Of a stretch of 64,000 bases of DNA, positions 1 to 15,416 are shown one piece after another. The position numbers and the translations under genes are program-made. A model generated the notes under the pieces. The model ran no database searches, was not told where the DNA came from, and saw nothing but the letters and a program-made list of their open reading frames with translations. The stretch comes from Bacteroidales bacterium (lineage in GTDB: Bacteria > Bacteroidota > Bacteroidia > Bacteroidales > UBA932), in contig JAFRRW010000016.1 in NCBI GenBank assembly GCA_017427885.1, positions 1 to 64,000 on the forward strand, read 5' to 3'. The number at the start of each line of letters is the position of its first letter. Position 1 is the first letter of the stretch.

Positions 1-98
1 AATTCGTGTATGCCGATCCCCGCGCTCTTTCGCGGCTTGCCGCGTCCTTCCTCGCCGCCGGAAGCCAAGGCATCCTCCGTCCGCCCTACTTTCCTTCC
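1..98 (-). rRNA. 23S ribosomal RNA, 5' end (partial)
   Basis: On the minus strand the sequence reads GGAGGATGCCTTGGC, then a block with GGCGAGGAAGGACGCGG and GCCGCGAAAGAGCGCGG. This matches the conserved first 80 or so nucleotides of bacterial 23S rRNA (in E. coli GGTGGATGCC, GGCGATGAAGGACGTG, CTGCGATAAGCG). The gene runs leftwards out of the window, so only the 5' end of domain I is present. The exact mature 5' end, near 98, is inferred from the roughly 20 nt that precede GGATGCC in other bacteria. No 16S gene or tRNA lies upstream: the promoter sits about 280 bp away and a divergent protein gene follows. Confidence 0.9.
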
Positions 99-368
99 AC
101 TCTGTGAATCGCGACGCACACGGAGCCCTCGCGGACTCCAGCGCGACTGCGCTTCTCTTTAGACTCGTGATGAAATTGCGTCCACAACGCCCCCTTCTCT
201 CATTAAAGAAGAAGGGAACGACAAGACTCGCAATGTTATCTCTTGCTTCTGTTGCTTCTAGCTTTGTACTCTATTTCTCGTGCCCGACTTGCTCGCGCAA
301 TCGGGCCACCTCGTTGATCTTCTCCAGTATTGTCAAAAAACTCTGTTTTTCCGTCCCTTTTCGAAACG
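99..368 (-). other. Leader of the 23S rRNA transcript
   Basis: This is about 270 bp between the minus-strand promoter and the start of 23S. It holds no tRNA and no 16S 3' end: the conserved GGATCACCTCC is absent. It has a strong hairpin at 283-305, with arms CCCGA..TTGC and GCAA..TCGGG, and a second stem near 125-145 (GGAGTCCGCGAGGGCTCC on the minus strand). Such stems suit rRNA processing or antitermination, but that role is inferred. Confidence 0.6.
271..336 (-). other. Short coding-like stretch in the rRNA leader
   Basis: A minus-strand frame with a TTG at 336 reads MTILEKINEVARLREQVG, then HEK and a TAG stop at 271. About 15 of 18 codons from the CTG at 327 end in G or C, like real genes here and unlike the AT-rich flanks. 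There is no ATG and no ribosome binding site. It could be a leftover gene 3' end carried with an rRNA leader, a leader peptide, or chance overlap with the hairpin at 283-305. Confidence 0.2.
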
Positions 369-373
369 GGCTG

Positions 374-404
374 CAAAGATAGCGACTTTTTTATTTCCAC
401 CAAA
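374..404 (-). promoter_or_regulatory. Promoter of the 23S transcript
   Basis: The minus strand has TTTG at 404-401, a 19 bp spacer, and TATCTTTG at 381-374, a perfect Bacteroidota promoter (TTTG-N19-TAnnTTTG). Transcription would start near 368 and run into 23S. Confidence 0.8.
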
Positions 405-449: not shown

Positions 450-457
450 TATCTTTG
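450..457 (+). promoter_or_regulatory. -7 element for the OPT transporter
   Basis: TATCTTTG matches the Bacteroidota -7 consensus and lies 40 bp before the transporter start. The -33 region is only T-rich. It diverges from the rRNA promoter about 45 bp away. Confidence 0.6.
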
Positions 458-497
458 ACAACCCTTAGGTCTGACTCCAAACCAATATTTCTGACAC

Positions 498-2474
498 ATG
501 GAAAAAACCGAGATGAAACTTCCGGAGAACGCGGGCAGGGAACTTGCCCCCGGAGAAGAATACAAGCCCCTGCTGGACAAGGGTGGAAAATTCGCCGAAG
601 TCACCTTCTATTCGGTGGCGGTCGGCATATTGATGGTGATCCTATTCTCGGCGGCCGCCGCCTATCTTGGACTCAAGGTGGGCCAGGTGTTCGAGGCCGC
701 CATTCCCATAGCCATCATCGCCGTCGGCCTCACCAGCGCCCTGGGCAAGAAGGACGGCCTGGGACAGAACGTGATTATCCAGTCCATCGGCGGCTGCTCA
801 GGGGCCGTGGTGGCCGGAGCGATCTTCACCCTTCCCGCCATATACATCCTCGGAGTAGAGGTGGATTTCTGGCAGATGTTCCTTTCTTCCCTGCTTGGAG
901 GCGTCCTGGGCATCCTCTTCCTTATCCCCTTCAGGAAATATTTCGTGAAGGAGATGCACGGGAAATATCCCTTCCCCGAAGCGACGGCGACAACCCAGGT
1001 GCTCGTCAGCGGCGAGAGCGGCGGAACCGGGGCCAAGACCCTCCTGGTCAGCGGCCTTATCGGAGGTCTCTATGATTTCGTGGTCTCCACCTTCGGGGCC
1101 TGGAGCGAGACGGTCACCACCTCGATTTTCACCTTCGGGCAGACCCTCGCCGACAAGGCCAAGGTGATCCTCAAACTCAACACCGGTGCCGCCGTATTCG
1201 GCCTAGGTTATATAATAGGTCTCAAATATGCCTTCATCATCACTTGCGGCAGCCTTCTCGTATGGCTGGTGATCATACCCCTGATGAACCTCATCTGGGG
1301 TGGTCAGGTGATAGACCTGATGAATACGGGAGTCGTACAAACAATCGGGGAAATGGGCCCTGACCAGATATTCCGCGATTATGCAAGGCACATCGGCATA
1401 GGAGGCATCGCCACGGCCGGCATCATCGGCATCATCAAGTCCTTCGGTGTAATCAAGTCGGCGATCGGCCTGGCCGCCGGAGAATTCTCGAAGAAAGGCC
1501 GGACGGCCGCGGAAGAATATGACCGCACCCAGGACGACATACCGATGAAGACCATCGTTTTCGGCATCATCATAGCCCTACTGGCAGTCTTCGCCTTCTT
1601 CGCCTTCGGAGGAGTGGTGAACAACGTCTGGCAGGCCCTGATCGGGGTGCTGATCGTCGGTGTCATCTCCTTCCTTTTCACGACGGTGGCGGCCAACGCC
1701 ATCGCCATAGTCGGCACCAACCCGGTGAGCGGAATGACGCTGATGACGCTGATTATCGCCTCTCTGGTCCTGGTCGCCGTAGGCCTCAAGGGTAACACCG
1801 GAATGGCCGCCGCCCTGATAATCGGAGGTGTCGTATGCACCGCCCTCGCAGTAGCCGGATCCTTCATCACCGACCTGAAGATAGGATACTGGATAGGTTC
1901 CACCCCCAGGAAGCAGGAGAAGTGGAAGTTCGTCGGCACCCTTGTCGCGGCGGCCACCGTCTGCGGAGTAATGCTCATCCTCAACAAGACCTACGGATTC
2001 ACCGGCGACGGGGCCCTCGTGGCGCCCCAGGCCAATGCGATGGCCGCCGTGATTCAGCCGATGATGAACAACGGAGGCGCCCCCTGGCTCCTTTATGGGA
2101 TAGGAGCGGTCATAGCCATACTGCTCACAGTGTTGAAAATTCCAGCCCTTCCTTTCGCCCTCGGAATGTTCATCCCCATCGACCTCAACCTTCCGCTGCT
2201 GGTCGGAGGAGCCGTGGCCTGGTACGTGAGCACCCGTTCAAAGGACAAGGAAGTCAATGTCGCCAGGGCCGAAAAAGGCACCCTCATCGCCTCCGGCTTC
2301 ATCGCAGGCGGAGCCCTTATGGGAGTGGTGAGCGCCATCCTGAAATTCGCCGGAGCCGACCTCTTCATGTCAGGCTGGAATTCCGTCTATGGAGAGACCC
2401 TCGCCCTTGTTCCTTATGTCCTGCTTATATGGTATGTCATCAAATCGTCAATGAAAGCGAAAAAAGATGCTTAA
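498..2474 (+). CDS. OPT family oligopeptide transporter
   Basis: This 658-residue inner-membrane protein is almost entirely hydrophobic helices. It carries the OPT signature AYLGLKVGQVFEAAIPIAI at about residues 55-73, followed by a glycine-rich stretch (IQSIGGCSGAVVAGAIF) and a second conserved half (NPVSGMTLMTLIIASL). Its length fits the bacterial OPT branch. OPT proteins import oligopeptides or metal chelates by secondary transport; the substrate cannot be told from sequence. The ATG follows a good -7 element by 40 bp. The last 8 bp overlap the next gene's start, so the two are probably translated together. A peptidase T gene two genes downstream fits peptide use. Confidence 0.92.
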   Translation: MEKTEMKLPENAGRELAPGEEYKPLLDKGGKFAEVTFYSVAVGILMVILFSAAAAYLGLKVGQVFEAAIPIAIIAVGLTSALGKKDGLGQNVIIQSIGGCSGAVVAGAIFTLPAIYILGVEVDFWQMFLSSLLGGVLGILFLIPFRKYFVKEMHGKYPFPEATATTQVLVSGESGGTGAKTLLVSGLIGGLYDFVVSTFGAWSETVTTSIFTFGQTLADKAKVILKLNTGAAVFGLGYIIGLKYAFIITCGSLLVWLVIIPLMNLIWGGQVIDLMNTGVVQTIGEMGPDQIFRDYARHIGIGGIATAGIIGIIKSFGVIKSAIGLAAGEFSKKGRTAAEEYDRTQDDIPMKTIVFGIIIALLAVFAFFAFGGVVNNVWQALIGVLIVGVISFLFTTVAANAIAIVGTNPVSGMTLMTLIIASLVLVAVGLKGNTGMAAALIIGGVVCTALAVAGSFITDLKIGYWIGSTPRKQEKWKFVGTLVAAATVCGVMLILNKTYGFTGDGALVAPQANAMAAVIQPMMNNGGAPWLLYGIGAVIAILLTVLKIPALPFALGMFIPIDLNLPLLVGGAVAWYVSTRSKDKEVNVARAEKGTLIASGFIAGGALMGVVSAILKFAGADLFMSGWNSVYGETLALVPYVLLIWYVIKSSMKAKKDA

Positions 2475-3717
2475 CCGACTCCTGCTCGTGGCGGCGGTCC
2501 TCCTGGCAGCAGGATGCGGACAAAAGGAAAAAGGCTTCGTCAACACCGGGAACTATGAGTTCTCGGGCGGGACGATAAGCCGGGAAGTACTTGACAATTA
2601 CCTTTCAAGGGCGGTGACCCAGTCCGGATACCTGTTTTCCGAAGGGCTCCCCGCAGACTCCTATTACGGCACCGAAGACGACGCCCGCATGCTCCTCAAC
2701 ATCGGCGCGAAATTCATCGGCCGCTCCATCTATGTTTGGATGAGGGCCGAATTGTTCAACAACCCGGACTGGCTCAAAAACGCGAAGGCGAAGATCGAGG
2801 CCTATCACGCCAAGGATCCCGACGCAATCTTCCAGGCCGCCCTGTTCGAGGCGATTTACAAAGAGCACATCGAACAGGTGCCCATTCCGGAATGGGTGTT
2901 CACCGCCTTCGGCCTCGAACCCGAAAAGAGGAATTTCCGTTTCGATGATATGTGCGTCACCTCCGACCCCCGTTTCAAGGATCTGTGGGGAAAGGATACA
3001 GGGGTGCCGGACATGACCAAGACCGAGAGCCAGATGTGGTTCTATTTCATGGGTGTAAAATACCTGGAAATAGGAATAGAAGCCTTCCATTGCGGCCAGA
3101 TAGACCTGATCTGCTTCAACGAACGGGACACGTATGCCTGTTTCCGCAAGGTCCAGGCGATGCTCCGAGAAAAGGCTGAGGCCATCTCCCGCAGAGGCAC
3201 CATCCTGTTCGACGCGCACAGCACGAGGGGCGGCGCGGTGGTGGACGGCCATCACCTTCTTGACTTCACGTCCTTCCCCCTGCGCCTTCGCGAAGTTTTG
3301 GACGAGCCGCTCAAAGCCACCCTCCAGGCCGGATATCTGGACAGCATCATCGGAAGGACGCTGCCGGGCATCACTCCTTCCGGATGGTACTGCGACCGTC
3401 TCCCTTATATTCTCGAATTCGACAACTGGGGACACAACCCCAACCCGGGCAAGGCAGACCACAATCACCATTCAGTATGGGGGTATGACGAAATATCCTG
3501 GATAAGTCTCTGCGACGAAGCCTATCAGAACTGGTTTTTCAAGTATGCCGTCGAATATCTCAGGGAAAACGATCCTGTCGGATTCATCCAGATGCCCGGA
3601 GCCAGGGGGACCGTGGACGGAAGGGAATCGACCTACCGCCTGAACACCGCCAGTCCGGCCTGTCCGACCGGACACAACGGGGAAGAAACCGTAAAGAAGC
3701 TTTGGAAAAAATATTAA
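2467..3717 (+). CDS. Uncharacterised lipoprotein coupled to the OPT transporter
   Basis: This 416-residue protein starts with a lipoprotein signal (LLVAAVLLAAGC), so it should be anchored in a membrane by its first cysteine after export. The rest is soluble, rich in Trp, Tyr, His and Asp, with clusters such as LFDAHSTRGGAVVDGHH and DNWGHNPNPGKADHNHH that could bind metal or sugar. I do not recognise the family with confidence; an enzyme acting on peptides or glycans is possible. The start overlaps the transporter stop by 8 bp (ATGCTTAA), which suggests a joint role, perhaps capture or processing of the transported substrate. Peptidase T starts 4 bp after its stop. Confidence 0.8.
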   Translation: MLNRLLLVAAVLLAAGCGQKEKGFVNTGNYEFSGGTISREVLDNYLSRAVTQSGYLFSEGLPADSYYGTEDDARMLLNIGAKFIGRSIYVWMRAELFNNPDWLKNAKAKIEAYHAKDPDAIFQAALFEAIYKEHIEQVPIPEWVFTAFGLEPEKRNFRFDDMCVTSDPRFKDLWGKDTGVPDMTKTESQMWFYFMGVKYLEIGIEAFHCGQIDLICFNERDTYACFRKVQAMLREKAEAISRRGTILFDAHSTRGGAVVDGHHLLDFTSFPLRLREVLDEPLKATLQAGYLDSIIGRTLPGITPSGWYCDRLPYILEFDNWGHNPNPGKADHNHHSVWGYDEISWISLCDEAYQNWFFKYAVEYLRENDPVGFIQMPGARGTVDGRESTYRLNTASPACPTGHNGEETVKKLWKKY

Positions 3718-3721
3718 TGAT

Positions 3722-4951
3722 ATGGAAAAGATACTAGACCGTTTTTTGAGGTATGTGTCGGTGGACACGCAGTCGAACGAGGAAAGCGAGAGCCAGCCTT
3801 CGGCGACGAAGGAACTGGACCTGCTGCGGATGCTGTGCAGGGAACTCCAGGAAATGGGGGTGGAGGCCTCCCTGGACGAATATGGATATGTGATGGGATC
3901 TATTCCTTCAAACATAGACGAAGAGGTCCCCGCCGTGGGATTCATCGCCCACGTGGATACTGCCCCTGACGCTCCGGGAGTGAATGTCAAGCCCCAGATA
4001 ATCAAGGATTACGACGGAGGGGAGATTCCCCTGAAGGGGGTCCCCGACCTGTCCCTCAAGCCCTCCGAATTCCCGGAGATGCTGAAATACAAGGGACAGA
4101 CCCTCATCACCACCGACGGCACAACCCTGCTCGGAGCAGATGACAAGGCCGGCGTCGCCGAGATAATGGATGCGGTGCAGTACATCACATCACATCCCGA
4201 ATTCAGGCACGGGACCGTGAAGATAGGCTTCACCCCCGACGAAGAGATCGGCCGGGGCGTGGTGAAATTCGACGTCGGGAAGTTCGGGGCGGACTTCGCC
4301 TACACGATGGACGGCGGAGAGGTCGGCGAACTGGAATACGAGAACTTCAACGCCGCTTCGGCCCGGATACATATCCAGGGCCGAAACGTCCATCCCGGCT
4401 ACGCCAAGGGCAAGATGAAGAACTCCATCCTCATTGCGATGGAACTGAACGACCTGCTTCCGATCGAGCAGAGGCCGGAATACACCGAAGGCTACGAAGG
4501 CTTCAACCATATCATCTCCTTCAAGGGGACCGTGGAAGAGACGGATTTCGCATATATCATCCGCGACCACGACAGGGAGAAATTCGAGAAGAAGAAGGCT
4601 TTTGTCGCGGAATGCGTGGACTTCATCAACAAGAAATACGGCCCCGGAACCGCAGAGGCCGTGATAAAGGACCAGTACTACAATATGAAGAGCCAGTTGG
4701 AGCCGCACATGCACGTGGTTGACAAAGCGGTGAAGGCTATGGAGATGGCCGGCATCAAGCCGAAGATCCAGCCCATCCGCGGGGGCACCGACGGGGCCAA
4801 CCTCAGTTTCAAGGGTCTCCCCTGCCCGAACATCTTCGCCGGAGGCCTCAACTTCCACGGGAAGATGGAATACGTCCCCCTGGAGAGCATCGAGAAGGCT
4901 TCCGAGGTTATCCTCAACATCATCAGCCTGTACGCCGGACAGCCCGCCTGA
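3722..4951 (+). CDS. pepT: Peptidase T (tripeptide aminopeptidase)
   Basis: This 409-residue M20B zinc peptidase removes the N-terminal residue from tripeptides in the cytoplasm. Metal-site motifs are all present: AHVDT (His77, Asp79), GADDKAG (Asp140), the catalytic DEEIGRG (Glu174/175), MDGGE (Asp197) and a late His in LNFHGKMEY. The N-terminal RFLRYVSVDTQSNE is typical. Length is normal. It starts 4 bp after the lipoprotein, so transporter, lipoprotein and pepT probably form one peptide-use operon. The next gene has its own promoter. Confidence 0.95.
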   Translation: MEKILDRFLRYVSVDTQSNEESESQPSATKELDLLRMLCRELQEMGVEASLDEYGYVMGSIPSNIDEEVPAVGFIAHVDTAPDAPGVNVKPQIIKDYDGGEIPLKGVPDLSLKPSEFPEMLKYKGQTLITTDGTTLLGADDKAGVAEIMDAVQYITSHPEFRHGTVKIGFTPDEEIGRGVVKFDVGKFGADFAYTMDGGEVGELEYENFNAASARIHIQGRNVHPGYAKGKMKNSILIAMELNDLLPIEQRPEYTEGYEGFNHIISFKGTVEETDFAYIIRDHDREKFEKKKAFVAECVDFINKKYGPGTAEAVIKDQYYNMKSQLEPHMHVVDKAVKAMEMAGIKPKIQPIRGGTDGANLSFKGLPCPNIFAGGLNFHGKMEYVPLESIEKASEVILNIISLYAGQPA

Positions 4952-4964
4952 GGGGAGGCACGTT

Positions 4965-4995
4965 TTTGGAATTACGGCGATTCTTAGTAAATTTA
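4965..4995 (+). promoter_or_regulatory. Promoter of the transketolase operon
   Basis: TTTG at 4965-4968, a 19 bp spacer and TAAATTTA at 4988-4995 match the Bacteroidota promoter with one mismatch. The leader to the ATG at 5037 would be about 35 nt. Confidence 0.6.
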
Positions 4996-5036
4996 CAAGT
5001 TGATTTGAAATCTGAAACCATATTCATAACCAAACA

Positions 5037-5882
5037 ATGGCTGATACTGAACAATTGAAGAAAATTGCCTCCCAAGTCAGGAGAGACATCATCCGGATGG
5101 TGACGGCGGCGAAATCCGGCCACCCGGGAGGTTCAATGTCCTCGACGGACATAATGACCGCACTTTATTTCAGCGTAATGAAGCAGAGCCCCGAAGGCTG
5201 GACACGGAGCGGAAAGGGCCAGGACATGTTCATCCTGTCCGCAGGCCATCTCGCCCCCGTCCTCTACTCGGTTCTCGCCCGCGCGGGCTATTTCCCCAAG
5301 GAAGAACTCGGCACCCTGCGCAAGTTCGGGTCCCGTCTCCAGGGCCATCCCTCGGTAGAACACGGGCTGCCCGGAGTGTTCCAGGCCGCAGGCTCCCTCG
5401 GACAGGGACTTTCGGTGGCAGTTGGAGCGGCTCTCGCGAAGAAGATGGACAAGGAGGACAATTTCGTTTACGTCCTCTGCGGCGACGGTGAAACCGAAGA
5501 AGGCCAGATATGGGAAGCGGCGATGTTCGCCCCCCATCACGGCGTGGACAACCTCATAGCCTTCACAGACTGGAACGGCCAGCAGATTGACGGAACCGTC
5601 GACAGCGTGGCGGGAGAGGGTGATCTGGGGATCAAGTGGAAAGCTTTCGGCTGGAGGGTGATTTCGGCCGACGGGCACGACATGGACGCCATCCTGGCGG
5701 CTTTCGAAGAAGCCAAGGCGGGAAAGGGTACAGGCAAGCCGACGATGATCCTTTTCAAGACCGACATGGGCCACGGGGTGGATTTCATGGCAGGTACCCA
5801 CAAGTGGCACGGTAAGGCACCTTCACCGGAGGAGTGCGAAAATGCCCTCAGGCAGCTGGAAGAAACGCTTGGTGATTATTAA
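5037..5882 (+). CDS. Transketolase, N-terminal (thiamine-binding) subunit
   Basis: This 281-residue protein is the first half of a split transketolase. It carries the thiamine diphosphate site: AAKSGHPGGSMSSTDI near residue 25, GSLGQGLSVAVGAAL near 115, and the metal motif CGDGETEEGQIWEA near 145. Transketolase moves two-carbon units between sugar phosphates in the pentose phosphate pathway. Two-gene transketolases are known in archaea and many bacteria, so this is not a broken gene. The C-terminal partner follows after 15 bp with a clear AAGGAGG ribosome binding site. Confidence 0.95.
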   Translation: MADTEQLKKIASQVRRDIIRMVTAAKSGHPGGSMSSTDIMTALYFSVMKQSPEGWTRSGKGQDMFILSAGHLAPVLYSVLARAGYFPKEELGTLRKFGSRLQGHPSVEHGLPGVFQAAGSLGQGLSVAVGAALAKKMDKEDNFVYVLCGDGETEEGQIWEAAMFAPHHGVDNLIAFTDWNGQQIDGTVDSVAGEGDLGIKWKAFGWRVISADGHDMDAILAAFEEAKAGKGTGKPTMILFKTDMGHGVDFMAGTHKWHGKAPSPEECENALRQLEETLGDY

Positions 5883-5897
5883 TAAGGAGGACTGAGT

Positions 5898-6851
5898 ATG
5901 AAAAAGTATATAGATACAGGAAAGAAAGACACCCGCAGCGGTTTCGGAGCGGGTCTTCTCGAAGCGGGCAAGGCGGACAAACGGGTCCTCGCCCTCACCG
6001 CCGATCTCAAGGGTTCCCTCAAGATGGGGGACTTCGCCTCGGCCTTCCCCGACAGGTTCATCCAGTGCGGAATCGCCGAGTCCAATATGGTGGGGGTTGC
6101 CTCCGGTCTTGCCCTCGCCGGCAAGGTCCCCTTCATCGGCTCATTCGCCGAATTCGTCACCGGCAGGGTATATGACCAGATCCGCCAGGAGGTGGCCTAC
6201 GGCCATACCAATGTGAAAATCGCTTCCTCCCACGCAGGCATCACCCTCGGAGAGGACGGAGCCACCCACCAGACGATGGAGGACATCGCCCTGATGAGGG
6301 CCCTCCCGGGAATGATCGTCATCAACCCCTGTGACTACAACCAGACTAAGAACGCCACCATCGCCGCCGCTAAGGTCGACGGACCGGTGTACCTGCGTTT
6401 CGGAAGGCCTTCCGTTCCCAATTTCACTCCCGAGAACGAGCCCTTCGAAATCGGCAAGGCCTATGTCCTCAACGAAGGCAAGGACGTGACCATCTTCGCC
6501 ACCGGGCATACGGTGTGGGAGGCCCTCCTCGCCGCCGAGGCCCTCGAGGCTGAAGGAATCTGCGCCGAGGTGATCAACGTGGCCACCATCAAGCCCCTTG
6601 ACGAAAAGACCGTCACAGCCTCCGCCTTCAAGACGAAGGCCGTGGTCGTGGCTGAAGAGCACAACAGCGCCGGCGGACTGGGCGAACTCATCGCAGGAGT
6701 CCTTGCAAAGCGCAGACCCACCCCGATGGAATTCGTGAACGGCGCCGACAAGTTCGGGCAGAGCGGAAGTCCCGCCGAGCTGATGGCGGCCTACGGTCTC
6801 GATGCGGCTCACATAGCAGAGGCGGCCAGGAAGGCGATAGCGAGAAAATAA
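5898..6851 (+). CDS. Transketolase, C-terminal subunit
   Basis: This 317-residue protein is the second half of the split transketolase. It has the pyrimidine-binding domain (CGIAESNMVGVASGLALAG, SFAEFVTGRVYDQIR, SSHAGITLGEDGATHQ) and a C-terminal domain with KAVVVAEEHNSAGGLGELI. It pairs with the N-terminal subunit 15 bp upstream to form the active enzyme. An AAGGAGG lies 8 bp before the ATG, one of the few strong ribosome binding sites in the window. The sigma factor gene begins 4 bp after the stop, so it is very likely on the same transcript. Confidence 0.95.
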   Translation: MKKYIDTGKKDTRSGFGAGLLEAGKADKRVLALTADLKGSLKMGDFASAFPDRFIQCGIAESNMVGVASGLALAGKVPFIGSFAEFVTGRVYDQIRQEVAYGHTNVKIASSHAGITLGEDGATHQTMEDIALMRALPGMIVINPCDYNQTKNATIAAAKVDGPVYLRFGRPSVPNFTPENEPFEIGKAYVLNEGKDVTIFATGHTVWEALLAAEALEAEGICAEVINVATIKPLDEKTVTASAFKTKAVVVAEEHNSAGGLGELIAGVLAKRRPTPMEFVNGADKFGQSGSPAELMAAYGLDAAHIAEAARKAIARK

Positions 6852-9165: not shown

Positions 9166-9239
9166 CGGGGTGTGGCGCAGTTGGCTAGCGCATCTGGTTT
9201 GGGACCAGAGGGTCGAGTGTTCGAGTCACTTCACCCCGA
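9166..9239 (+). tRNA. tRNA-Pro (UGG anticodon)
   Basis: The sequence folds as a complete cloverleaf. The acceptor arms are CGGGGTG and CACCCCG, the D arm is GCGC..GCGC, the anticodon stem CTGG/CCAG presents TGG in its loop, and the T loop is TTCGAGT. The UGG anticodon reads proline codons. The 3' CCA is not encoded: the gene ends with discriminator A at 9239 followed by CA, so CCA must be added after transcription. A terminator begins 7 bp downstream. Confidence 0.95.
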
Positions 9240-11273: not shown

Positions 11274-14200
11274 TTAATCTTCCACGCGTTTATAGAGTGC
11301 TACATTAGCTGAAGAGGAGGAACTTTGGAAATAGCTGCTCGAAGAAGAATAACGTAGGTTGTATGTAGTATTGTTACTAGTACGTGAGATAGTAGCAACA
11401 CCACTACTAGATATACTGATATTGAAACTGTGTGACGAACCCTTTGTCTCTTCCGCTCCCATATTATTATATGTGGGATACAAGTACCTGGAGACAGAAG
11501 CGACATAGAGATAATACCCGTCTTCCAATGTCATCTGGCAATCCTCCAGGGCATCCGAAGTTATTGTCCCATCTGAGATTGACACATCCAGCGCGTTCCC
11601 CGAAGTAGCGAAGTTAGAACCATTAAGTGTAGGTTTGAACACCTTTGATCCGTCTTCATACACAAGTATATACTTGTCACCGGCCACAAGGTCAGATGAA
11701 GAAGAGACTTTCACGTACTGCGTTGTAGACGGTGTAGGATCGTCTCCGCCGCCAGGCGTAGAACCGTCGTCAAGCATATAGAGACAGACATTAATCGTAA
11801 CGGAAGTGCTATAGGTACTGCTGAAATAACTGCTATTGGTTGACCAGCACAGACTGGCGGCTGTGGTACTCGCATTCGTAATCTTGGCTATCCCGTCACT
11901 TTGGATGGAAACCGTCAAGTTGTGGGAAGGAGAACTCTCTGCCTGAAGTGAGGTATTATTACTCTCCGTGTAAGGATACAAATATCTGTCTGCTGATTCA
12001 ACATAAAAATAATAGCCGTCCTTCAACGTAAGCTCACAATCCTCCAGTTCAGAAGATTCAATCTTGCTGCTCGAAATTGTTACACTCTGAACATTATCCT
12101 TGGCTTTCTTGAAAGTGCTTCCATCAAGAATCGGCTTGAAGACAGATGGAGTACTCTCAAAAACGAGCAGGTACTTGGCGTCTGCTTTGAGACCGGACGA
12201 GGATGTGACCTTCCGATATGTTTTGACAGGAGCTTCGCTATTCTTGACAGTCAAAGTATAGCTGACCTCCTCGGCCTTGTAGGTGTCGTTCTTCGGAGCT
12301 GAGGCGGTAATCGTTGCGGTGCCGGTCTTTCCGGACAGGGTAACCTCACCGGTGGTGGAGTTTACCGAGGCAACAGACGAACCTGATGTCACACTGTATG
12401 ACACTCCATCAGTTACACCTTCGAGTGACGGCTCCTCAACGTTATAGCCCTGAGCCAGGTCGTGTGTCACACTTGCGGGGCTGAAGGTGAGGTTGCGAGG
12501 GGTAAGAGGAGGAGTCGAACTGTAAAGAACGGCAACGTGAGAACTTCCGGAGGTTGTACTCATGCTCCATCTGTCATTACTTGTACTGTAATACAGATAA
12601 TACGTTGAACTTCCTGAACCGGTGGCGGTCAAATAACTGGTGGAATAATCATATGACCAAAGGTAGTAACCGGAAGCACTGGACGAGGCTGTCGCTGTAT
12701 ATCTTCCACTGGAGCCTCCTCTTTGTAAATACTGCCCGTTATTCTCAAAAGTAAACTTGCTGGAAGAAGCAGCTGCAGTCCAAATGAGATTGTCGTCAGC
12801 ATCATACTGGAAGGAGTCTCCGGTGAATACTTCTTCAGCAACACCGGCCGAACTGCCATTGTTGTTCTGCAAGGCATATCCATTCGAAATGATCAGATAA
12901 TCATCGCCTGCTACAATCTCCTCGGCCTTATACCAGGTAGGAACATTGGTGCTGGTTACGTGGATTGTATAACTGGCAGAACCGGGCTTGTACTCGGTGT
13001 TGCCTGCAGCACTTGCTGTTATGACAACGGTACCGGTCTTGAGGATGGTCACGTCGCCCGTGGTGGCATTCACCTCGGCAATGTTCTCATTGCTGGAAGA
13101 GTACTTCACCGTTCCTATGGCACCTGACAATGTCGGCTTGACAAAAGCAGCGCCTCCGTCTATGTCATAGTTGAATTCCGTTTCACTGAAGGTGGGATTC
13201 TGATGCTGACGGCCGTCATCAAGCACGTAGAGGCATATGCCGGTGGAATACTGTCCGGAGAGTGAAGAATTGCTGCTGAAGTAGTGGCTCGACGTGGACC
13301 ATACAAGGTAGTTGGAACCGCTCTGAGTCTTAATCTGGACAATGCCGTCACTGAATCCAATGGTCAGGGAGTTTGTAGCCGTGGCTTCCGCGGAGAGGGT
13401 GCCGCTGCCGCTGCTGGAACCAGTAGGATACAGGTAGCTGCCTTCTGCATCGGATTTGAGGTAATATCCAGCTTCCAAAGTCAGATGGCAATCTTCAAAC
13501 TCGCTTGAAGTGATTGTATTCGAGGAGATTTCGACATCCAGAGCATTGGAAGTACTCTTTGAGAATGTCTTCCCGTCCGAAGAAAGGATAGGCTTGAACA
13601 CCTTGGGATCTCCGTCATCCGCATCTCCGGCGAGACCCTCGAATACCAACAGGTACTGGGAACCGGCTTCAAGATCAGCGGTGGAGGTGACCTTGTTGTA
13701 GATATTGACGTTGCTGCTGGTTACTAGGATGGTGTAGCTGGCGGAACCGGCCTGGTGCTGATCGTCTCCGGCGGCGATGGCGGTGATGACTGCCGTACCG
13801 ACCTTCTTGATCTCAACCTTACCGGTAGTTTCGTTAACAGAAGCTACGGCTATGTTGCTGGAGGAATATGCGACCGTGGTTGCGGAAGTCGTCAGCTCGG
13901 GCTCGGTGAACGTTGCTCCGCCGTCGATGTCGAAGGTTATTTCGTCAACGCTGAAAGCGATCTCCTGAGGAGGACGGTTGGTATAGATCTGGACAGTTCC
14001 GATGCTGCTTCCAGGGGCGTCGCCATTCTGAGTATATCCTGTGGTCCATTCGCTGTCGTAGTAGCAGAAGAAAGTCATCGTTCCGGAACTCTCATGCCTC
14101 AGATATGATCCGTCATAGTCCCAAACGACATACTTAGGCTTATCTGAAGGAATCGAAGTGTCCAGGAGAATATCCTGGGAATTACGCTGCAGATAATAAC

Positions 14201-15416
14201 CATTGTTGGTGAGGGTGAAATGGCCGGCGACAACATCAGAACTGCCGCTACCGGTCATTTCTGTGCGGGCATCAGCCCTCCAGACAATGGTCGGATCGGC
14301 ATCGGACTCAAAGGTAATGACGCCGTCCTGAGGAGATACGGCCACCTTGTCCGTTGAGCCGGAGTTGTTCTTAAGGGCCTGGCCACCGGAAACAATCAGG
14401 TAATCGCAACCATCCTCGAAGATGGAAGCCTTGTACCAGGTGCTGGAATCCGGACCGGCTTCCTCTGCCTCGGCGGTAGAGAGGTCCAGGTTGATGTTCT
14501 TGAAGACGTCTGCGGAGAAGGTGATTTCCTTGCCGCCGGAGAGGGTCTTCGTGTAGTGGTACTGGTCAGTGAGAACCTCGATGCTGGTAATCGAAACCTT
14601 ACCGGGAATGGTCACGAAATAGGCTTCGAAAGCACCTAAAGCAGGGGCGGCCACTCCGTCACCGTAGGAAAGGGTAAGGATTCCGGGAGCCTCGTCACGT
14701 ACGAAATTGACAGTGGAGTTCTCGAAATCGATGTCGGAGGCGGAAGCGGAACCGGTAAGACCGGCGTCAGCGTTGATCGTAACGGATTTGACGGTTTCCC
14801 CGCTGCCCTTGAAATTGGAGAGGGAAATACGTCCGAGGGCCGCTACGCGGTCGAAATAGAGGTCCACGACGAGATTGTCATAATCATAAGGGTCGTCGTA
14901 GGACTTGCGGCTGTAACCGATGAGGAAATCGGCGTCGGGATCCTTCAGGGTCTCGGCGTCGGGATGCTGCTCGGAGGGAATCACGAAAGTGTAAGCTTCA
15001 CCAGGTTTCTGGGCAACCACGGCACCGTAGGTAAAAGGTCCCGTTCTGGTTCCCTTGGTCGCACCCTTGCTTCCATCATCGATATGGATGATCACGTCTT
15101 CGTCGATGGCGGCCTTGAAATGGGCGGTACGGTCATTCTCGGATAATTCGATAATGTCCGCTACACCGTAAGCGGCCTCCTTGTTCGCATCCATCTCGAA
15201 GAAATGGACGTTTTGGGGGTCCGTCTTCTTCCAGTCAGGAACAGCCATGTTGTCCTCGATCGAAAGGCCGGTCTTGGTGGTCTGGTCGACGGAGGAGAAA
15301 TAGACCGTATGCTTGTGGCTCTTGCGGGGACTGTTGTCCTTGAGTTCCTCCGTACAGGATACGAAGGCCGGAACCAGCAGCGCTAAGGTCAGAAGATAGG
15401 ATATATATTTTTTCAT
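11274..15416 (-). CDS. Giant modular surface lipoprotein with Ig-like repeats
   Basis: This 1380-residue protein has a lipoprotein signal (LALLVPAFVSC) and is probably displayed at the cell surface. Residues of about 40-340 look like a fimbrillin-like beta-sandwich (FVIPSEQHPDAETLK). Then come alternating modules. Type A begins WYKA..DYLIVSGGQALKNN and occurs twice. Type B begins YNKVTS..QYLLVFEG, with DCHLTLEAGYYL and YLYP, and occurs three times including the C-terminus. Ig-like (Big_2) modules such as VAYSSSNIAVASVNETTGKV occur three times. Ser, Thr, Gly and Tyr are abundant in A and B. It is the last gene of a four-gene operon. Adhesion or glycan binding is plausible; no enzyme motif is seen. 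Confidence 0.88.
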   Translation of the reverse strand: MKKYISYLLTLALLVPAFVSCTEELKDNSPRKSHKHTVYFSSVDQTTKTGLSIEDNMAVPDWKKTDPQNVHFFEMDANKEAAYGVADIIELSENDRTAHFKAAIDEDVIIHIDDGSKGATKGTRTGPFTYGAVVAQKPGEAYTFVIPSEQHPDAETLKDPDADFLIGYSRKSYDDPYDYDNLVVDLYFDRVAALGRISLSNFKGSGETVKSVTINADAGLTGSASASDIDFENSTVNFVRDEAPGILTLSYGDGVAAPALGAFEAYFVTIPGKVSITSIEVLTDQYHYTKTLSGGKEITFSADVFKNINLDLSTAEAEEAGPDSSTWYKASIFEDGCDYLIVSGGQALKNNSGSTDKVAVSPQDGVITFESDADPTIVWRADARTEMTGSGSSDVVAGHFTLTNNGYYLQRNSQDILLDTSIPSDKPKYVVWDYDGSYLRHESSGTMTFFCYYDSEWTTGYTQNGDAPGSSIGTVQIYTNRPPQEIAFSVDEITFDIDGGATFTEPELTTSATTVAYSSSNIAVASVNETTGKVEIKKVGTAVITAIAAGDDQHQAGSASYTILVTSSNVNIYNKVTSTADLEAGSQYLLVFEGLAGDADDGDPKVFKPILSSDGKTFSKSTSNALDVEISSNTITSSEFEDCHLTLEAGYYLKSDAEGSYLYPTGSSSGSGTLSAEATATNSLTIGFSDGIVQIKTQSGSNYLVWSTSSHYFSSNSSLSGQYSTGICLYVLDDGRQHQNPTFSETEFNYDIDGGAAFVKPTLSGAIGTVKYSSSNENIAEVNATTGDVTILKTGTVVITASAAGNTEYKPGSASYTIHVTSTNVPTWYKAEEIVAGDDYLIISNGYALQNNNGSSAGVAEEVFTGDSFQYDADDNLIWTAAASSSKFTFENNGQYLQRGGSSGRYTATASSSASGYYLWSYDYSTSYLTATGSGSSTYYLYYSTSNDRWSMSTTSGSSHVAVLYSSTPPLTPRNLTFSPASVTHDLAQGYNVEEPSLEGVTDGVSYSVTSGSSVASVNSTTGEVTLSGKTGTATITASAPKNDTYKAEEVSYTLTVKNSEAPVKTYRKVTSSSGLKADAKYLLVFESTPSVFKPILDGSTFKKAKDNVQSVTISSSKIESSELEDCELTLKDGYYFYVESADRYLYPYTESNNTSLQAESSPSHNLTVSIQSDGIAKITNASTTAASLCWSTNSSYFSSTYSTSVTINVCLYMLDDGSTPGGGDDPTPSTTQYVKVSSSSDLVAGDKYILVYEDGSKVFKPTLNGSNFATSGNALDVSISDGTITSDALEDCQMTLEDGYYLYVASVSRYLYPTYNNMGAEETKGSSHSFNISISSSGVATISRTSNNTTYNLRYSSSSSYFQSSSSSANVALYKRVED

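Follow-up and report, generated by a model that had tools for sequence, protein, structure and literature searches.

A conserved free-standing 23S–5S rRNA unit with a Bacteroidota-type promoter in a family of Bacteroidales

The rRNA genes of a bacterium are regarded as unlinked, according to Brewer et al. (2020, ISME J 14:597), when more than 1500 bp lie between 16S and 23S or when no 23S is found within 1500 bp after 16S (PMC8178347). The portions of the literature used here name Planctomycetes, CPR, Chloroflexi, Cellulosilyticum, Helicobacter, and small symbionts as clades with such genes (PMC8178347, PMC7825169, PMC8172020), and also mention Thermus, Dehalococcoides, and Gimesia (PMC7761764); in Buchnera, Wolbachia, and Helicobacter, the split is between 16S and 23S–5S (PMC8172020, PMC12424978). 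As far as those portions describe them, the known unlinked genes resemble the locus reported here in that 16S lies far more than 1500 bp from 23S–5S and in that the arrangement is conserved over a clade, and the division into a 16S unit and a 23S–5S unit is the one given for Buchnera, Wolbachia, and Helicobacter. The present locus differs from the named clades, however, because it belongs to a family of Bacteroidales, leaves tRNA-Ile and tRNA-Ala with 16S, and can coexist with linked copies, and it differs from Buchnera, Wolbachia, and Helicobacter in its phylum, in its Bacteroidota-type promoters, and in the lack of any sign of strong genome reduction or AT-richness. Most genomes of the relatives measure 1.5–3 Mb, and the GC content over positions 451–3000 of the stretch analyzed is 53–62%. 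A literature search at the level of titles and the starts of abstracts, with most subscription journals outside its coverage, returned no report of the split in this family. The conserved free-standing 23S–5S unit in Bacteroidales is real, while unlinked rRNA genes as such are already known elsewhere, and a large, species-rich Bacteroidales family now joins the bacteria that possess them. Our main reading, to which we assign a probability of roughly 0.92, is that the stretch begins with the head of a free-standing 23S–5S unit, the rRNA operon being split between tRNA-Ala and the 23S leader with a promoter of its own for each half. This reading rests on the arrangement of the DNA, the match to the promoter consensus, and conservation.

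The window, by which we mean the whole stretch of 64,000 nucleotides that was analyzed, covers contig C16 from its left end (G000:C16:1-64000; the contig has 69,813 bp), the contig ending at window base 1. The genome, G000, is 1.87 Mb in 17 contigs and 81% complete. The relevant features are as follows.

1..100, minus strand: 5′ end of the 23S rRNA gene (Rfam RF02541 LSU_rRNA_bacteria, model positions 1-100, 55.5 bits, E 9e-14)
101..367, minus strand: predicted 23S leader RNA of ~267 nt, its start (near 367) placed from the sequence ~7 nt past the −7 box
325..341, minus strand: boxA-like leader element GTTTTTTGACAATACTG, whose common form among relatives is GTTCATTGACAATACTG
374..381, minus strand: −7 promoter box TATCTTTG, recognized from the sequence (consensus in the part of PMC7366714 used here)
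401..404, minus strand: −33 promoter box TTTG, at a spacing of 19 nt from the −7 box
498..2474, plus strand: divergent gene for an OPT-family oligopeptide transporter (TIGR00733, 264.5 bits; PF03169), a frequent neighbor of the split 23S
3722..4951, plus strand: gene for peptidase T (PepT; TIGR01882, 555.7 bits), the other frequent neighbor of the split 23S

The 23S match is truncated on its 3′ side by the contig end. We take the element at 325..341 to have the role of a boxA. The fold of the leader is more stable than those of its shuffles (z −2.1), 4 of 200 shuffles being equally good, and in relatives, sequences that match the promoter/leader stretch precede the starts of 23S and 16S genes and, in one case, a tRNA cluster. 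Promoters for the primary sigma factor of Bacteroidota consist of TTTG near −33 and TAnnTTTG near −7, as given in PMC7366714, and this consensus is present upstream of the 23S gene at 404-401 and 381-374 with a spacing of 19; transcription is predicted to start near window position 367 on the minus strand, where the boxes suggest promoter activity. Full matches to TTTG-N17-21-TAnnTTTG occur twice in the 64 kb, both strands included, and the mean in 50 block-shuffled copies was 0.48. No SSU match was found within the 64-kb window, and the tRNA scan of the window yielded only tRNA-Pro at 9166, with no spacer tRNA upstream of 23S. A preliminary description of this DNA had already claimed the minus-strand 5′ end of 23S, a leader of ~270 bp behind a promoter, a divergent protein gene, and the absence of a 16S 3′ end and of spacer tRNAs upstream, and these claims agree with the Rfam match at 1-100, the ~267-nt leader and TTTG-N19-TATCTTTG at 404-374, the OPT transporter gene starting at 498, and the negative SSU and tRNA searches.

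A second TATCTTTG box stands at 450-457 on the plus strand, without TTTG at the usual distance, and its position suggests a divergent OPT promoter placed back to back with that of 23S. Elsewhere in the window, two adjacent genes at 5037-6851 on the plus strand encode the N-terminal and C-terminal halves of transketolase, and a repetitive-looking protein of 1380 aa without a Pfam match is encoded at 11274-15416 on the minus strand.

The missing half of the operon lies at the far end of the same contig. When a relative's 16S-3′-end/tRNA stretch was used as the query, the 16S 3′ end, tRNA-Ile, and tRNA-Ala were found, among the matches listed, at C16:69563-69813 on the minus strand. Read inward from its right end, C16 carries the last bases of 16S (CTGGAACACCTCCTTT), tRNA-Ile(GAT), and tRNA-Ala(TGC); a hairpin with a T run comes next, and then a protein gene. 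The 16S half is therefore located upstream of 23S on the same strand and contig, and the ~69.7 kb from 16S-Ile-Ala to 23S place G000 among genomes with unlinked genes (>1500 bp from 16S to 23S). The hairpin past tRNA-Ala has a stability of −23.4 kcal/mol, a T run, and one mismatch in its stem; a strict terminator scan around this tRNA-Ala found none. Contig C8 ends in the 5′ part of 16S, which is preceded by a separate promoter, TATCTTTGCAGCCCGTTTC, and a leader. The short contig C1 carries the 3′ end of 23S together with 5S, after which comes a hairpin that folds at −30.6 kcal/mol and has a T run. Because the contigs of G000 break within rRNA genes, the joins C8-16S-C16 and C16-23S-C1 are our reconstruction. 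Rfam family searches of G000 gave no 16S or 23S match, probably because only short ends of these genes are present. The 5S gene after 23S and the sequel of 16S, both of which the preliminary description had proposed to look for, were thus located, the former across the reconstructed join of C16 and C1. Its idea that the spacer had been replaced is correct as to the dedicated leader and promoter, but the spacer tRNAs were not lost and stayed with the 16S half.

In the mechanism that we propose, one half, 16S–tRNA-Ile–tRNA-Ala, would have its own promoter and a terminator hairpin, and the other half, 23S–5S, would have a second promoter of the same type, a boxA-like element in its leader, and a terminator hairpin. 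The two halves may be transcribed at a ratio of about 1:1, given the resemblance between their promoters and between the first bases of their transcripts. If 23S were instead still read from the 16S promoter as part of one giant transcript, the halves would be expected on the same strand, as they are in G000 and in the same-contig pairs listed for relatives; the transcript would, however, have to extend over ~69 kb with genes on both strands and to pass the terminator hairpin after tRNA-Ala, and the neighboring OPT gene is oriented away from 23S. We give this explanation practically no credence, and it was rejected on the grounds of the opposite-strand genes and the terminator hairpins. That the halves share a transcript in G000 is very unlikely, since they are ~69.7 kb apart and ORFs lie on both strands across C16 between them. 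As for processing of the separate 23S unit, the pair counts of a leader-trailer stem in six relatives' loci and in G000 were not clearly above those of shuffles.

The split is not peculiar to G000, whose genus, with more than 400 species, is conceivably Candidatus Cryptobacteroides, in view of its size and of the gut sources of some named relatives. A DNA query for 23S, with the best two candidate stretches per genome scored, matched in 211 of 400 genomes of the same genus, and 40 loci from 36 distinct genomes (the best 30 of the search and 10 picked by hand) were examined. At least 1.4 kb of upstream DNA was present in 39 of these loci, the exception being L092 of G121 with 57 nt; G121 is also represented by L280, and each of the 36 genomes contributes at least one locus with 1.4 kb or more. 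No 16S lay upstream of 23S in any of the 40 loci, and hence in any of the 36 genomes, within the stretch available. OPT or PepT was found within 1.5 kb upstream of 23S in 22 of 30 loci. The view from the other half is the same: among 31 loci with 16S-3′ matches, 24 continue from the 16S end into tRNA-Ile and tRNA-Ala, and none of the 24 has 23S thereafter, within 1.0–1.5 kb downstream or, for G000 (L196), within 9.5 kb. Six of the remaining seven are contigs that end in 16S, and the seventh, L175 of G404, has tRNA-Ile only and then a hairpin. Five full-length 23S matches occur in the bins of the genus, four of which are followed by 5S 63–67 bp later. Those four have no 16S upstream over 4.4 kb in G337, 2.9 kb in G152, and, in the two cases from G121, just 58 nt; the fifth, L120 (G379:C52:1-5462, outside the 40 loci), is a linked 16S–23S whose LSU is 68% identical and only ~2.3 kb long, and it is probably a foreign contig in the bin. 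Besides G000, both halves were found on one contig and on the same strand in G022 (42 kb apart), G033 (34 kb), and G114 (105 kb), and also in G215 at a distance of 69 kb, where the contig includes no more of the 16S half than its tRNA end.

Another locus outside the 40, L255 (G379:C68), has a 16S 3′ end 6.0 kb upstream of 23S. In L255 and in L254 (G101:C80), an AdoCbl-II (B12) riboswitch match follows the 16S 3′ end; L255 is without tRNA, and its promoter-bearing 23S start comes 6 kb later on the same strand.

Contig ends call for caution. The contig of G000 ends within 23S, rRNA genes are the usual break points of assemblies, and a chimeric contig end could have placed a 23S start next to an unrelated gene. 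The same junction of promoter, leader, and often OPT/PepT nevertheless recurs across numerous species that were assembled independently and across other genera of the family, and the unlinked 23S is internal in two single-contig genomes. An assembly artifact has, in our estimation, a very slight chance of being the explanation. Misassembly, which the preliminary description had named among the findings that would overturn its claim, was rejected because of the recurrence across genomes and the single-contig sister genomes.

The promoter is conserved along with the arrangement. Of 64 locus rows for 23S, in which some genomes are repeated, 59 contain TAnnTTTG in the 600 nt that precede the gene; the five rows without it are the linked L019 from another family, the linked L120, and three rows of G121 that end 58 nt upstream. 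Upstream of 16S, it occurs in all 31 rows, repeats included. The run after the −7 box, often CAGCCCGTTTCGGAAA, is common to the 16S and 23S promoter sets. By eye, the boxA-like GTTCATTGACAATACTG or a variant is present in many leaders of both kinds, lying ~60 nt or less past many 23S promoters and in a variant form past 16S promoters, and the element is kept in the linked operons of sister genera. In a small set of eight genomes in which both promoters are present, the similarity between 16S and 23S over their first 14 transcribed bases was 10.75 within genomes versus 9.65 in shuffled pairing (p 0.004). Two promoter-like boxes stand in tandem upstream of 16S in L035 and L045.

The arrangement extends to sister genera of the family, where pairs of halves, read by hand with the best two candidates per genome scored, lie on the same contig and strand at distances of 12–80 kb. 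Such pairs were found in g219 (G819, G836, and G850), g215 (G833, G816, and G798), g218 (G903 and G893), g27 (G832, G891, and G911), and g209 (G868 and G908); in both genomes of g218 and in G908, the match on the 23S side is confined to the leader. In several of the sister-genus genomes, the neighbors of the 23S half are again PepT and OPT, at times inverted. The claim of the preliminary description that 23S is unlinked and has a dedicated leader and promoter was therefore borne out, but as a genus- and family-wide trait instead of a peculiarity of this genome, and the split may have arisen once, before the radiation of the family. Two genomes of g27, each a single contig, hold both states: G622 has 16S-Ile-Ala at 428956 and 23S–5S at 539590, 109 kb apart, together with two linked operons, and G860 has a split pair 30 kb apart and two linked operons. 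In both, the promoter precedes the split 23S and is absent from the linked 23S examined, while the linked 23S leader is the same as that of the split copy from the boxA-like element onward; in G622 the split leader and the linked spacer are 99% identical over query positions 1743-5075. The split unit is thus like an ordinary linked Bacteroidales operon (L163 of G622; L019), the G622 leader being identical in kind from the boxA-like element onward, and unlike it in the promoter before that element, which the split copy alone possesses. In other genera of the family, the promoter was found in 12 of 12 unlinked 23S loci versus 0 of 4 linked ones, with L260 and L265 dropped from the comparison because no 23S start was found in them. 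With split and linked copies coexisting in single-contig sister genomes and differing by a promoter, the family provides a natural test of how 16S and 23S are balanced without cotranscription. The linked operons L163, L264, L262, and L263 of sister genera may be re-fused or retained copies, and G792 of g209, also a single contig, has linked operons only. A scan of one linked locus per genome (L163 of G622; L264) found no spacer tRNAs, which L262 and L263 likewise lack.

Whether the split pair is the only rRNA locus of G000 is a separate matter. Flanks were counted by hand in depth in 40 genomes of the same genus, with all candidates scored in 10 and at most ten candidates in 30. The 16S-3′ flank was found in 26 of the 40, always as a single copy (that of G000 came from the wider search, in which the best two candidate stretches per genome were scored), and the 23S-5′ flank was likewise single in the 30 genomes where it was found, G121 being counted as having one, two of its copies starting within 58 nt of contig ends and the leader flank being on a third contig. 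On the outer sides, two to three 16S 5′ flanks were found in 13 of the 40 genomes and two to three 5S/23S-3′ flanks in 21, so that 27 have extra flanks of one kind or the other, and these extra flanks suggest that linked operons are hidden in relatives. We read the state of the genus as a single split pair accompanied by none, one, or two linked operons that assembly collapsed, although lone 5S genes could be the source of part of the extra 5S flanks. In wider, shallower searches, G102 and G416 each had 23S starts on two contigs, G404 had a pair of 16S-3′ flanks, and G245 and G017 had Ile-Ala at two places, findings that could represent mixed bins or second split copies.

It is conceivable, and we would not be greatly surprised, that G000 itself is in a mixed state, with a real split pair and one or two collapsed linked operons, the split 23S furnishing part of the 23S supply; we nonetheless consider this less probable than its opposite. 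The single-contig G622 and G860 show exactly such a state, with one split pair and two linked operons each, and the surplus of 16S-5′ or 5S/23S-3′ flanks in relatives, where the two inner flanks never exceed one, points the same way. Against it, the 16S 5′, 23S 5′, and 23S 3′/5S flanks of G000 number one each with all candidates scored, exactly one of each flank is likewise found in G016, G337, G105, and G107 (5 of the 40 genomes with G000), the extra 5S flanks of the others have the other possible source mentioned above, and the rows and loci inspected for the genus contained no linked spacer, save in the foreign-looking G379:C52. G000 looks split-only, tentatively so because the genome is 81% complete and because relatives suggest hidden linked copies. 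The statement that no linked 16S exists therefore holds tentatively for this genome and is not extended to the genus, many members of which may have linked operons as well. Going further, the split pair might be the sole rRNA locus in all five genomes, where matched promoters with coevolving first bases would balance the subunits, the split dating back to the ancestor of a family with 25 or more genera, and later re-fusion or the retention of extra copies accounting for the linked operons of some members; we regard this larger proposal as speculative and on the whole unlikely.

In the rest of the order, a search of 393 genomes, its listed matches read by hand, showed 16S and 23S side by side in 38 or more genomes from 28 other families, in line with the preliminary description's statement that linked operons are the rule in Bacteroidales, but the rule has exceptions, since at least three other families also have unlinked copies. 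In f79 (G477 and G671; L268 and L269), 23S is equipped with a promoter of its own, and 16S is absent from the adjoining 10 and 6 kb. In f34 (G640; L270 and L271) and f72 (G666; L272 and L273), the order is tRNA-Ile–tRNA-Ala–23S with no 16S in 6 kb upstream, and the break point differs in being before the spacer tRNAs instead of after them. Splits of the rRNA operon probably arose more than once in Bacteroidales.
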